Of a stretch of DNA of 29,440 bases, positions 24,142 through 29,176 are shown one piece after another. The position numbers were made by a program, and so were the translations under genes. How positions within the stretch are numbered: the first letter of the stretch is position 1; the number at the start of each line of letters is the position of its first letter. A model generated the notes under the pieces. The model was not told the DNA's origin. It made no database searches and worked only from the letters and a program-made list of their open reading frames with translations. Source of the DNA: a virus; IMG/VR virus record IMGVR_UViG_3300025128_000220, positions 1 to 29,440 of that record. One strand, written 5' to 3'.

Positions 24142-24893
24142 ATGTAAGATGTTTCATAGTATGTTGTTGCTTTAACTCCACTATCTAAGTGTTCACGTAT
24201 CCTTGATACAGCAGTATCAAACTTTTGCTTCCCATACTCTAGCGTTTGATCCGTAGCAAAGTATAATCCTACTGCGTATGGGTATGCCTTTTCTTGTGCT
24301 ACCCACCTAAAATCTTTTATCCCTAAAACCTCTGTATAGATATACGCCTGTATATCGTAACCGAAGTCTCGCACAGCCCACTTAAACTTATCTAACTTCT
24401 GTGTAGTCTTTGAGTCAGCTATGTATTCGTCATTCAAAATGTCTAGGAATCCACGCACAGGGACGTCCCCAATGAAGTCGTTAAACTCATATTGAGCATT
24501 GCCCTGTAGTGATATTTCGTGCACCCCAGTTTCTTGTAATCTCTGTATCATTTCCTCAGCCTTCACCTTGTCTTCGACAGAAACTATTTGTTTTCCTGGC
24601 TCGGCTAAAGAATCTTTCCATTCTGAGTAAGCTTTGGTTCTCTGTGGAGCTTTACCACCTATCTCTAAACAGATAGCTGTATCGTCTGCGACCACGAACT
24701 GATCGCTAAACGACTCAGGAGTGAGGAGCAGACAGTCGTATAGCTTACCGAAAGCAAGAGCTGGACTTTCTATCTTGAGCTGGTCCCTCATCTTCATCTC
24801 AAACAACTGCATGTCTTTTAATGCGTATTTTATCGACGAGTAAGAGAGGTATCCCTTCCCATATTTCTCTGATAACTTAAGTGCTAAATCCAT
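24138..24893 (-). CDS. recE: RecE/exonuclease VIII-like PD-(D/E)XK exonuclease
   Basis: The 251-residue protein shows LSYSSIKYAL (16-25), ALAFGKLYDCLLLTPE (45-60), VRGFLDIL (146-153, D151), YIADSKTT (157-164, D160 and K162) and DIQAYIY (180-186, Q182). These match the motif series of RecE-type 5'-3' exonucleases (DUF3799-like). In many relatives the first block carries His where Asp53 stands, a small deviation. The enzyme would resect double-strand ends to give 3' single strands for the ERF annealing protein encoded just upstream. Its ATG overlaps the ParB-like stop by one base (TAATG), and its stop overlaps the next ATG (ATGA). Confidence 0.85.
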   Translation of the reverse strand: MDLALKLSEKYGKGYLSYSSIKYALKDMQLFEMKMRDQLKIESPALAFGKLYDCLLLTPESFSDQFVVADDTAICLEIGGKAPQRTKAYSEWKDSLAEPGKQIVSVEDKVKAEEMIQRLQETGVHEISLQGNAQYEFNDFIGDVPVRGFLDILNDEYIADSKTTQKLDKFKWAVRDFGYDIQAYIYTEVLGIKDFRWVAQEKAYPYAVGLYFATDQTLEYGKQKFDTAVSRIREHLDSGVKATTYYETSYI

Positions 24894-25630
24894 TACTTAT
24901 TTTTTTTAATATTTGCTAAAGCTTCAGAATAAATGTCAGTAAAATATTCTAACTGATCGTTTGATTTACTGTAAGTCTGTATGTAGTTCTTTTGACACAT
25001 TAAATTAATTGCGTCAATATTTAATCCTTGGTTGTCAAAGTGCAATACTTTTATGGATCTAGCTATTGATTGTTGAAAAGGACTTGCTTTCATTGGATGT
25101 TCATTCATAACCATAAGCGTATCGAAAATTTCTGTACCTGATTTTTCATTCATCTTATATGTCATGTCTTTTAACCTTGATCTTAAAGGGCTGTGAGTCC
25201 TGCCATCCATAAGTATTTCCAAGCCAGTAATTAAACTTAATTTATTTTTGGATTCTTTTCTCCATTGCTTTGAAATTTTTACTGCTTGTTGAACATCAAT
25301 ATTTCCGCTTTCAGCAGCGTAGTTTGCATAATCCATAGCTGTCCATTTAGAGGAAGTGTTATTTATAGCTATTGTATGCTCATCATTTTTCCAAGCCTTA
25401 CTTACGATATATGGGACTACATATTTTAGCTTTCTTAAAGCCCAAAATCTATGCTGACCATCAACGATGTACTTATCTTCATTGACGATTATAGGAATTT
25501 GCACTCCTATTTCTTTAATACTATCAGTTAATTTATTGAGTATCCTCTGATTAGGCTCTCTATTTGTATTAAGAAACTTGAACACTCCATATTCTCTAGT
25601 TTCATGAGTTTTAAATTTCGTAATATCCAT
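24893..25630 (-). CDS. ParB/sulfiredoxin-fold protein
   Basis: I choose the ATG at 25630 (MDITKFKTHE, 245 residues), which overlaps the ERF stop as TGATG; a GTG one codon earlier is possible. The N-terminal domain (about 14-85) is ParB/Srx-like, with LTDSIKEIGVQIPIIV (34-49) and the signature VDGQHRFWALRKL (56-68). The remainder is helical with SSKWTAMDYANYA (near 94-106), a part shared by phage ParB-like proteins of unknown role. There is no partner ParA or obvious centromere, so plasmid-type partition is not indicated. Placement between annealase and exonuclease suggests DNA recombination or nuclease work. Function beyond the fold is unknown. Confidence 0.7.
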   Translation of the reverse strand: MDITKFKTHETREYGVFKFLNTNREPNQRILNKLTDSIKEIGVQIPIIVNEDKYIVDGQHRFWALRKLKYVVPYIVSKAWKNDEHTIAINNTSSKWTAMDYANYAAESGNIDVQQAVKISKQWRKESKNKLSLITGLEILMDGRTHSPLRSRLKDMTYKMNEKSGTEIFDTLMVMNEHPMKASPFQQSIARSIKVLHFDNQGLNIDAINLMCQKNYIQTYSKSNDQLEYFTDIYSEALANIKKNK

Positions 25631-26199
25631 CACTTAATTACTTCAGCAAGATCCCCTAACGCCTTTAACTTTTTAACTTGATCTTTTGTAAGCTCAGATT
25701 CATACTTGCCTAGTATAAGCTTTACTGCAGAAGTCTTGTCTTTAGAATTGTTGATGTGAGCTAAGCTCTTTTCGTAAATGCTTTTTGCAGGAGCTTTCTT
25801 TTTAGCTGGAGTACCAGCGCCTGTGTTTGTAGCGTCGCTGTCTTTTGTATCATCAATACAGAACAGTCCGTTGAGTGCATACTTTCTTGCATAACTAGAC
25901 GATGCTCCTGTTACCTGGCTACCGTCCATACCTTTTTTGCTTTCTTCTTCCCTAGCAAAAGCTGTCGTTTGTACCTCAGACTGACCGTCGGTAAGCCTAG
26001 CTGTAGCCTTGACGTATACTCTGTCACCAACCATTACCATTTCGTCTGACAATGTTAGGATCAGACCGTGTTCTGATAGTAAAGGTTTTACAGATTCTAA
26101 AATGTCCTCAGCAGATCTGTATTTGTATCCGCCGAACTTGTTCATTTGCCCCTTCGGAGCCTTAAGATTGCCTTGAATAAGGCTTAGTTTATCTACCAT
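25630..26199 (-). CDS. erf: ERF-family single-strand annealing protein
   Basis: The 189-residue protein carries the ERF signature: FGGYKYRSAEDILESVKPLL (22-41) with the usual SEHGLIL after it, YVKATARLTDG, FAREEESKKGMDGSQVTG, and SSSYARKYALNGLFCIDDT. The C-terminal 60 residues are a Lys/Ala linker and a small helical tail. ERF proteins anneal complementary single strands coated by SSB, promoting recombination and end joining or circularisation of phage DNA. It pairs with the RecE-like exonuclease two genes downstream and the SSB just upstream. Its stop and the next ATG share one base (TGATG), implying reinitiation. Confidence 0.88.
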   Translation of the reverse strand: MVDKLSLIQGNLKAPKGQMNKFGGYKYRSAEDILESVKPLLSEHGLILTLSDEMVMVGDRVYVKATARLTDGQSEVQTTAFAREEESKKGMDGSQVTGASSSYARKYALNGLFCIDDTKDSDATNTGAGTPAKKKAPAKSIYEKSLAHINNSKDKTSAVKLILGKYESELTKDQVKKLKALGDLAEVIK

Positions 26200-26226
26200 G
26201 ATATATTATATTAAATTAAAAATTAG

Positions 26227-26301
26227 ACTCCTGCGTAGGATTCGAACCTACACTCTCGGGAAACCAATTAAACACGAGCCCATCCCAGTGGGTAGCAGGA
26301 G
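26227..26301 (-). tRNA. tRNA-like element with abnormal anticodon arm
   Basis: Read on the - strand, the ends form a perfect seven-pair acceptor stem (CTCCTGC at 26301-26295 with GCAGGAG at 26234-26228), then TA, a D-arm CCCA/TGGG with a GG-containing loop, and a perfect five-pair T-arm GTAGG/CCTAC with loop TTCGAAT. The anticodon region is 27 bases, too long for the normal layout. The best pairing is CTCG/CGAG plus a mismatch and one G-C pair, leaving a 12-base loop (TTTAATTGGTTT) and a 3-base variable region. No anticodon can be assigned and no CCA is encoded. It lies between SSB and ERF in the same transcript. It may be a divergent or decayed tRNA, a tRNA mimic, or an attachment-type remnant. 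Confidence 0.55.
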
Positions 26302-26304
26302 GTG

Positions 26305-26321
26305 TGCGGCACAAGGCCGCA
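26305..26321 (-). terminator. Hairpin after the SSB gene
   Basis: TGCGGC and GCCGCA form six pairs around a five-base loop, four bases after the SSB stop codon and four bases before the tRNA-like element. No T-tract follows, so it may be a weak terminator, an mRNA-stability element for the abundant SSB message, or a processing site beside the tRNA-like element. Confidence 0.45.
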
Positions 26322-26325
26322 TAAA

Positions 26326-26619
26326 TTAGAATGGTAAGTCAGCAGTTTCTGCTTCTGTCTCTACCTCTTCTTGCCTTTCAGCAGTAGTGATAGTTCCGTC
26401 AGTCCAGATAACTTTTGCATTACCTACATAATTTTTTGGTGTCTTTGCATCACGCTCTTCTTTTGTTTGTGAGCAGAAGATGCTGCAGTTGTCACCGAAT
26501 TGTCCCGTCTCATCGTTCACTGAAATAGTGAAGTCATAGTACGTTCCGTTTTTGCCTTTGATAAGTTTTTCTTTCGGCAGTTTGTTCAAATTAATTGAAC
26601 CTTTGATTAATGATCCCAT
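26326..26619 (-). CDS. ssb: Phage single-stranded DNA-binding protein (SSB)
   Basis: The 97-residue protein has a small OB-fold-like body: LIKGSINLNKLPKEKLIKGK, YYDFTISVNDETGQFGDN, SIFCSQTKEERDAKTPKNYVG and NAKVIW. It ends in an acidic tail (EEVETEAETA) with the tip DLPF, like the protein-binding tip of bacterial SSB (DDIPF). The NDETGQFGDN and QTKEERDAK segments are typical of short SSBs in Bacteroidota phages. It would coat single strands for the primase-helicase and hand them to ERF, encoded downstream. A hairpin follows its stop. Confidence 0.82.
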   Translation of the reverse strand: MGSLIKGSINLNKLPKEKLIKGKNGTYYDFTISVNDETGQFGDNCSIFCSQTKEERDAKTPKNYVGNAKVIWTDGTITTAERQEEVETEAETADLPF

Positions 26620-26629
26620 AGTTTTAAAT

Positions 26630-26857
26630 TTAAAGGGTTTGAATTAAAAGTTTATATCGTGTTCTAAATGCTGGTATGTGATCCATAGATCTATCTGCTT
26701 CTATCCAATGCAGAAACATAGGATCTTTGTGTACATTAACAGCTTCGGATATGGCTGAATAGCTCATGTCCTTGTGCTTAGCTAAGTATGCTATAGCTAA
26801 GCGTAATGCTTCGTCACCAGTAGCGCCAGTGATTCTTGTTACTTCTTCTACTATCAT
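26630..26857 (-). CDS. Small helix-turn-helix protein, weakly DnaA domain IV-like
   Basis: This 75-residue all-helical protein starts in an ATGA overlap with the secreted-protein gene and ends 10 bases before SSB. The segment ALRLAIAYLAKHKDMSYSAI (17-36), then SEAVNVHKDPMFLHWIEA (37-54), has the spacing of DnaA domain IV (helix, MSYSAIS turn helix, then an HKDPMFLH part where DnaA has RDHSTVLH). The resemblance is weaker than for the 118-residue protein further on. A DNA-binding regulator or origin-binding factor fits its place beside SSB, but this is inference. Confidence 0.5.
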   Translation of the reverse strand: MIVEEVTRITGATGDEALRLAIAYLAKHKDMSYSAISEAVNVHKDPMFLHWIEADRSMDHIPAFRTRYKLLIQTL

Positions 26858-27288
26858 GGCTCTGGAAAAAAATCAAAATAACCAGTTCCAATTCTTTCAT
26901 GTGTTTGTGAATTGTACATATAAAAATCATAACCTCCATAGGCGTCTACCTCAAGCTGTACATAGGGTTTATTATCAAATTCAGATAGATCGTTGTACTG
27001 ACGCTCGTCAATAGTTCTCGTCCATACTCCATCAACCTGTGTACAAACGTCATGTCTAGTAGCCTCCCAATAAACAGTTTCTACAATATCACCAGTTAAG
27101 TGTCTTACGTTGTCAAAATGATCCCAAGTAATTGGATAACCCTCTGCAAGTTCGTAATCAATAGATGCCACAAATGTTGGATCATAAAAGATTGTAAACG
27201 TATGTGAAACTTGCGCATACGATATTGTAGTTAGTAGCATAGATGCCACTAGCGGTAGCATCTTTAGTGTTTTATTAAATTGTTTCAT
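26854..27288 (-). CDS. Secreted/periplasmic protein of unknown function (possible second start at 27396)
   Basis: From the ATG at 27288 the product has 144 residues and a typical Sec signal peptide: basic MKQFNKTLK, hydrophobic MLPLVASMLLTTI, and SYA before Q26. The mature part (about 119 residues) is acidic, rich in Tyr, Phe and Trp, probably beta-sheet, with one Cys (HDVCTQ). I recognise no family. The same frame stays open upstream, and an ATG at 27396 would add 36 charged residues (MGKMKEVFIKDIED and onward); that start is almost at the expected transcription start of the promoter at 27405-27435. The longer form would hold the hydrophobic part internally, as a signal anchor. Early expression and export suggest an envelope role such as exclusion of other phages, unproven. 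Confidence 0.6.
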   Translation of the reverse strand: MKQFNKTLKMLPLVASMLLTTISYAQVSHTFTIFYDPTFVASIDYELAEGYPITWDHFDNVRHLTGDIVETVYWEATRHDVCTQVDGVWTRTIDERQYNDLSEFDNKPYVQLEVDAYGGYDFYMYNSQTHERIGTGYFDFFPEP

Positions 27289-28727: not shown

Positions 28728-28915
28728 TATTTATATTTAATTCCGTTTGCTCTTGCTACATCTAATATCTCATCGTCTGAAAAGTATTCTCTGTTAGGAT
28801 TTTGGTCGTGAAGTTCTTCTGATATATCATCCCAGCATCCACCATATAGTATCATGCCGTCACATTCGTACCAGTAATCATCGCCTTCGTTGTATGGGTA
28901 TTTTTTATCGGTCAT
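28727..28915 (-). CDS. Small acidic hypothetical protein
   Basis: This 62-residue protein is rich in Asp, Glu, Tyr and Trp (YPYNEGDDYWYECDG, GGCWDDISEELHD) and ends in a short helix (DEILDVARANGIKYK). It starts in an ATGA overlap with the 55-residue gene and ends in a TAATG overlap with the next. No family recognised. Composition fits a soluble cytoplasmic early protein that binds a host protein, but that is a guess. Confidence 0.6.
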   Translation of the reverse strand: MTDKKYPYNEGDDYWYECDGMILYGGCWDDISEELHDQNPNREYFSDDEILDVARANGIKYK

Positions 28916-29079
28916 TTTGTATGTGATTTAATTGCATCAATAAGGCTTTCTCTAGCGTGTGTTGGATCTGATATCACTATACGCACTAGCCATTCAAACT
29001 CACCTACTAGCGATTCAGTGTCGCACTCATAGAAGTTATCTATGTATTGTTCCATTTGTTCTTGTGTCGTGTAACTCAT
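28912..29079 (-). CDS. Small hypothetical protein (55 residues)
   Basis: ATG at 29079 and TGA ending at 28912 give MSYTTQEQMEQYIDNFYECD, then EFEWLVRIVISDPTHARESL, and a short basic end (IKSHTK). It is a compact helical protein. It overlaps the gene before it by 44 bases in another frame and the next gene by ATGA. Start and stop placed exactly at coupled junctions, and protein-like composition, support it. Function unknown. Confidence 0.55.
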   Translation of the reverse strand: MSYTTQEQMEQYIDNFYECDTESLVGEFEWLVRIVISDPTHARESLIDAIKSHTK

Positions 29080-29176
29080 TTTGTTTTGGTTTAATTGGTT
29101 TTGTAATTAGCTCTGCTAGTTCGTGCATACTGAATGATGCGAAGCCTGATTGTGTTTTTGGTTTACGTTTACTCAT
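29036..29176 (-). CDS. Very small basic protein (46 residues)
   Basis: ATG at 29176 (ATGA overlap with the preceding stop) to TAA at 29036 gives MSKRKPKTQSGFASFSMHEL and 26 more residues, with KPIKPKQNE in the middle. The final 14 residues are read in the area shared with the next gene and look less natural, so the product may be mainly its first 30 residues. It is basic and could bind nucleic acid. Function unknown. Confidence 0.45.
   Translation of the reverse strand: MSKRKPKTQSGFASFSMHELAELITKPIKPKQNELHDTRTNGTIHR

Follow-up and report, generated by a model that had tools for sequence, protein, structure and literature searches.

The window, a stretch of viral DNA 29,440 nucleotides long, carries on its minus strand a tRNA-like RNA with well-paired acceptor, D- and T-arms and, at the anticodon position, only a weak stem closing a 12-nt loop. 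We consider it very likely that this element is a tRNA-derived RNA that is maintained by selection and does not decode; both its selection and its non-decoding status are well supported, and it is probably a tRNA-Arg that was turned into a regulatory or processing RNA. The RNA may switch genes instead of reading codons, because its conserved loop is complementary to a signal found ahead of many small genes in the same phages. The element and its immediate surroundings are as follows.

26301-26227, minus: tRNA-like RNA, 74 nt (26301-26228) plus discriminator U at 26227
26295-26301, minus: acceptor 5' strand CUCCUGC, 7 of 7 pairs with 26228-26234
26279-26292, minus: D-arm CCCA-CUGGGA-UGGG, 4 of 4 pairs
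26256-26277, minus: anticodon-position arm, weak stem UCGUG/CCCGA with one U.C mismatch
26261-26272, minus: 12-nt loop UUUAAUUGGUUU, the proposed pairing part
26235-26251, minus: T-arm GUAGG-UUCGAAU-CCUAC, 5 of 5 pairs
26228-26234, minus: acceptor 3' strand GCAGGAG; no CCA is encoded and UCU comes next
26305-26321, minus: hairpin UGCGGC-CUUGU-GCCGCA, 6 bp, no U-run, between the SSB stop and the element
26326-26619, minus: upstream gene labelled SSB, 97 aa, PHROG 24909 only, C-terminal DLPF
25630-26199, minus: downstream gene for an ERF single-strand annealing protein, PF04404 (E 3e-42), PHROG 155

Structure and genomic context of the element

Read 5' to 3', the element is CUCCUGC UA CCCA CUGGGA UGGG C UCGUG UUUAAUUGGUUU CCCGA GAGU GUAGG UUCGAAU CCUAC GCAGGAG U. 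A preliminary description had placed it at 26227-26301, correctly though with the strand (minus) unstated, and the complete acceptor (7/7) and T-arm (5/5, loop TTCGAAT) pairing that it reported is confirmed, as is its plausible D-arm, in which CCCA and UGGG pair 4/4. The minimum-energy fold is a cloverleaf whose middle part is exactly the one described there, CUCG/CGAG plus one inner G-C pair closing the 12-nt loop; the same stem can alternatively be described as UCGUG/CCCGA with one U.C mismatch. The combination of a 7/7 acceptor with a 5/5 T-arm of the TTCRA type occurs once in the window, compared with a mean of 0.007 per order-1 Markov copy.

A search for a standard tRNA fold, which the same description had proposed, returned none: ARAGORN called neither a tRNA nor a tmRNA in the window, and Rfam gave no match there at gathering score. 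The element does display the traits of RF00005 (a cloverleaf with acceptor, D and T arms and a UUCRA T-loop), and its homologue in contig L008 scores 39.4 bits with that model against a cut-off of 29, yet the L008 anticodon region is also abnormal, with UGUUUGAUUGGUUUC kept. The sole sub-threshold match of the window element in the Rfam clan was tRNA-Sec (8-bp acceptor, long variable arm, UCA anticodon), rejected at 14.8 bits against a cut-off of 47 and with no variable arm in the element. A tmRNA, with its tag reading frame and pseudoknots, was likewise rejected, given no ARAGORN tmRNA call and a length of only 75 nt. Allowing introns (ARAGORN -i) produced 5-nt introns with differing anticodons in the two lineages; since the proposed anticodons disagree and introns of that sort are not known from bacterial tRNAs, the suggestion that the element is a tRNA needing processing is unlikely in its intron sense.

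The element had been placed inside an SSB-ERF transcript. The ERF assignment stands (PF04404, PHROG 155), whereas the SSB assignment is weaker: PHROG 24909, of unknown function, is the sole match of the 97-aa product, a Pfam search gave no family, and the protein ends in an SSB-like tail, DLPF. We use the name SSB as a label only. The 26305-26321 hairpin begins 4 nt past the SSB stop codon, just ahead of the element, and its stem is the same in 9 of 9 aligned rows, L008 included. On the far side of ERF, a ParB-like gene (window 24893-25633, minus) lies between ERF and the exonuclease; it is there in L118 and missing at that place in L192 and G008, and thus seems to be a mobile insertion.

Conservation in related phages

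Searches with ERF and SSB recovered the element from the same SSB-ERF gap of nine other phage contigs, ten loci in total, and the comparison of related phages that the preliminary description had recommended thus found stems that are not decaying. The SSB gene neighbours the element in 10 of 10 loci. All ten also have the 12-nt loop and the mismatched anticodon-position stem, with no 5-bp stem and 7-nt anticodon loop, so that the reported lack of a normal anticodon arm holds for the whole set. The element is near-identical in eight of the nine other contigs; the ninth, L008/L192, belongs to a different species (ERF 86%, SSB 78% and primase 77% identical to the window).

Substitutions within the close group preserve the fold. 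In L010, 72 of 74 bases are as in the window, and both differences form one compensatory T-stem exchange (G-C to A-U), against 59% identity at fourfold-degenerate sites between the window and L010/L222 (46% for L192). The acceptor changes keep their pairs (C-G to U-G in L004, U-A to U-G in L008), as does a U-A to U-G change in the T-stem of L008, and the inner anticodon-stem pair is G-C, G-U or A-U across the relatives. No substitution falls in any loop within the close group, where UUUAAUUGGUUU is invariant. The L008 D-arm is wholly different in sequence but still paired, as a textbook GCUC-AAUGGUA-GAGC; its alignment with the window requires a one-base shift, and tabulated pair counts therefore understate D-stem pairing in L008. 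The L008 loop, UUUGAUUGGUUU, differs from the 12-nt loop of the window by one purine and is closed by a poor anticodon-position stem. Changes that keep pairs, a loop and T-arm conserved far above neutral sites, and 72/74 identity against 59% at neutral positions together argue strongly against the decay that had been offered as one option; they support instead the earlier view that the ends are conserved and the decoding part is altered, as in a tRNA-derived RNA.

A more distant relative, G015 (59 kb; primase 53%, structural protein 57-61%), was found by searching with one small leader-motif gene (see below). Its only tRNA-like element, 93 nt at 56145-56053 (minus), carries UUUUAUUGGUU; its acceptor stem is 7 bp long, four pairs form its T-arm, and besides a single long D-like arm there is an open loop, UUUUAUUGGUUAU. 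Because a covariance model of the element reaches G015 only weakly (9.6 bits), we count it as a member by its position, fold and loop. The pattern ATTGGTT...TTCGA was found in 0 of 50 other phage records. Many matches to the pattern ATTGGTTT were ordinary tRNAs with the word inside a normal anticodon arm, and these were set aside.

No relatives of the primase were found in bacterial genomes, and for this reason the host of these marine, flavobacterial-type phages is deduced solely from cultured relatives that infect Cellulophaga, Flavobacterium and Maribacter.

Relationship to the tRNA-Arg of sister phages

Five sister phages (G023, G027, G030, G031 and G034; primase 53-59%, ERF 54-71%) carry an ordinary tRNA-Arg(UCU), which is the sole covariance-model match in each and which immediately follows SSB in G023 and G027. 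The element probably descends from this tRNA-Arg(UCU). The two share the place after SSB (G023, G027), D- and T-arm sequence and a cloverleaf with a 7-bp acceptor, whereas the sister tRNA has a normal 7-nt anticodon loop (TCT) and the element a 12-nt loop, a weak stem and another acceptor sequence. Comparison of the arms is compatible with descent, but the resemblance is generic. A search of bacterial genomes for tRNAs with the same acceptor, as a source of the element, gave none close. Between SSB and tRNA-Arg, G023 and G027 have a G-C terminator-like hairpin followed by a T run (L348 13440-13545 and L349 14425-14530, respectively); the window has at the same place a shorter hairpin with no T-run. 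Neither the likely tRNA-Arg ancestor nor the conservation of the oversized loop and its complementarity to a leader motif had been seen in the preliminary description.

Complementarity between the loop and gene leaders

The invariant core of the loop, AUUGGUUU, is the exact complement of AAACCAAU. In a first scan for loop complementarity, the open reading frame at 28912-29079 stood out by a 12-bp match, placed 10 nt ahead of its AUG:

29090-29101, minus: candidate target AAACCAAUUAAA, complementary to the whole 12-nt loop; also inside an overlapping 46-aa frame
28912-29079, minus: small gene, 55 aa, whose leader contains the candidate target

Other clade members have AAACCAAT, the complement of the loop core, ahead of many small genes, and an unbiased tally of all leader 8-mers ranks it as the most widespread in the clade (13 of 105 gene families; 13 of 120 when more genomes were added). 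The genomes contain 35 copies, including six that belong to the element itself, and in 16 cases a frame-opening AUG follows within 18 nt, mostly at 4-6 nt. The motif occurs in 16 of 333 leaders of RNA-carrying phages, compared with 1 of 363 in the five tRNA-Arg sisters and 2 of 1348 in other phage loci; the Fisher value for clade versus sisters, 7e-5, ignores relatedness, and the genomes counted are mutually related. A composition-controlled permutation of the loop gave p = 0.017 when pooled by gene family and 0.01 to 0.6 for single genomes, so that the complementarity is only moderately significant; loop and leaders are both A/U-rich.

The element therefore has a conserved unpaired seed that is complementary to the starts of several genes (13 families; p = 0.017). 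Most motif leaders offer 8 bp of pairing only, with an adjoining mismatch. The core is invariant within the clade; G015 has a varied loop and only 2-3 motif leaders, and a motif-gene orthologue lacks the motif in both L309 and G015. As a repeated DNA motif within the window, the loop shows no excess. The sister phage G034 has a leader motif of its own, AAACCCTTAA, and no complementary RNA was found for it in the G034 sequence examined, which shows that a leader motif does not require such an RNA. Early genes of this phage (L340-L342, minus 25240-27241) share, ahead of the ATG, the long motif ACTAGAAACCCTTAAACACAA, which differs from AAACCAAT.

Proposed mechanism and alternatives

Bodies made of a 7-bp acceptor and a T-arm are cut by RNase P and RNase Z, and they can receive CCA. 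By its recognition shape, the element may be such a substrate. We tentatively propose a mechanism in which host RNase P and RNase Z would cut the SSB-ERF transcript at the tRNA-like body in tRNA fashion, so that a stable RNA some 75 nt long would be set free. The 12-nt loop would be its active part: AUUGGUUU would pair with AAACCAAU in the leaders of small early genes, where this motif mostly stands 4-6 nt ahead of the AUG, and the pairing would block ribosome binding at those leaders, activation being less likely. Translation initiation in Flavobacterium works without Shine-Dalgarno pairing and depends on the region from -3 to -13 being A-rich and unstructured (PMC6847099, PMC9976891); a duplex in that region should therefore repress. 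Early genes might, for example, be turned off in this way while the SSB-ERF operon is active. That the RNA is transcribed, processed and paired with leaders inside cells, and that it represses them, are all predictions here. As a working idea, a tRNA gene may have become a trans-acting regulator whose anticodon arm, widened to a 12-nt loop, recognises the 8-nt word AAACCAAU in early-gene leaders and not codons. As a proposal and not a demonstration, antisense pairing explains the conserved loop with the fewest assumptions.

The tRNA-like body could instead serve only as a cis-acting site for RNase P and RNase Z cutting, separating the SSB and ERF messages and leaving the loop without a partner, which we consider unlikely. 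The best-kept parts are those that the two enzymes recognise (acceptor, T-arm and elbow), and the conserved hairpin, which SSB would retain at its 3' end, stops 3 nt before the predicted RNase P site, while ERF would receive a short leader of 28 nt, A/U-rich and typical for the group. However, the loop is needless for cutting, and it is conserved like the T-arm across L008 and G015. Similarly improbable in our view is a reading in which the loop of the selected RNA binds a different trans partner, be it RNA or protein, the leader match being coincidental and the motif an early-gene or cassette-linker signal. The composition-controlled p of only 0.017 and the sister phage with a different leader motif and no complementary RNA fit this explanation, as do several motif copies that coincide in part with the last codons (AAC CAA TAA) of the gene before them, an arrangement possible for a cassette joint. 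Other copies, though, sit past the stop codon, so the motif is not only a coding effect, and it is lacking in phages with a normal tRNA-Arg and found in those that carry the RNA.

We give little credence to a trans-acting decoy or mimic, which would bind a tRNA-acting host factor such as a tRNA-cleaving defence enzyme through its body and altered loop. The loop is indeed enlarged and fixed, but we know of no nuclease that recognises it, and the leader motif would be left unexplained. Phage tRNAs with altered anticodon loops have been proposed to evade tRNA-cleaving defences (PMC10264068), and phage tRNAs are able to counter defences (PMC11555353); the cited cases, however, are decoding tRNAs that replace cleaved host tRNAs, and the element cannot decode. 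A decaying tRNA gene, suggested by the absence of a decoding arm and by a window version below the tRNA cut-off while that of L008 scores above it, is very improbable, as the loop is conserved and not drifting, and the close-group changes all keep pairs at 72/74 identity. A role at the DNA level, as an attachment site matching a host tRNA gene or as an ERF promoter or operator, we regard as most unlikely: AAACCAAT/ATTGGTTT could act in both orientations as an operator in DNA, and attachment sites often copy tRNA 3' halves, but the two halves of the cloverleaf have both been preserved, with compensatory changes, the lack of a tyrosine integrase (PF00589) in 13 related, possibly incomplete records counts against an attachment site, and a sigma-70-type scan, whose reach does not include flavobacterial promoters, found no promoter at the element.

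Comparison with known systems

Phage tRNAs with altered loops (van den Berg et al. 2023, PMC10264068) resemble the element in having a changed anticodon loop kept by selection; they carry point changes and decode, whereas the element is without any anticodon. The pairing proposed for the element at phage translation starts is shared with phage antisense and small RNAs such as the P22 sar RNA and lambda PreS (PMC12197685), from which the element differs in being a tRNA scaffold with one unpaired loop as its seed; tRNA-like sRNAs are not mentioned in that review. The T4 repressor RegA (PMC3014915) is likewise one factor acting on A/U-rich starts of many early messages, as proposed for the element, but RegA is a protein, and the element would be an RNA with a defined 8-nt complement. 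tmRNA, YrlA (a bacterial Y RNA) and other anticodon-less tRNA-like RNAs have a tRNA-like elbow and ends and do not decode. The element, unlike tmRNA, has no tag reading frame or tmRNA call; in YrlA the T-arm precedes the D-arm, whereas the arm order of the element is normal, and Rfam gave no match at gathering score. In the literature searched, with partial coverage, we found no anticodon-less phage tRNA-like RNAs and no antisense RNAs on a tRNA scaffold.

Other unusual tRNA-like RNAs were encountered in the phage contigs. A second, very conserved 76-nt RNA with the core TATCTCCTCAAGCTTATACCTTGTAGAAAGAGTAACTGGTCACAT adjoins tRNA genes (L022 5073-5148; L026 and L027 5276-5351; L057 4421-4496; L202 6269-6344). 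Its acceptor varies yet remains paired (TCGGAAG/CTTCCGA versus TGGCAAG/CTTGCCA), ARAGORN gives no call, and its middle is without a normal tRNA fold. Just downstream (L022 after 5148, L026 after 5351) lies a short acceptor-plus-T-arm-like element, GGGCGCATGGTG...GGTGTTCGATTCCCCTCCGCCCT, with an extra 7-bp hairpin in L022 that L026 does not have. In the tRNA-like RNA of an unrelated phage, L267 (4014-3949, minus), a 4-bp hairpin closed by a GAAA tetraloop forms the anticodon arm; this RNA scores 39.2 bits with the covariance model of the window element. At L024 2030-2766 and L028 1596-2598, tRNA-like elements whose anticodon arms are defective or replaced stand in clusters, where ARAGORN reports 'tRNA-???' with 2-base anticodons and the Rfam tRNA model scores 35-55 bits; L024 1163-1254 weakly resembles YrlA.

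Implications

The element illustrates how such genes escape tRNA finders. A selected phage tRNA that does not decode, alongside sister phages with the normal tRNA, provides an evolutionary before-and-after. If the loop pairs with the leaders, it would represent a route from a tRNA to a regulatory RNA, and a form of translation control suited to the Bacteroidota, where Shine-Dalgarno pairing is unused (PMC9976891, PMC6847099).
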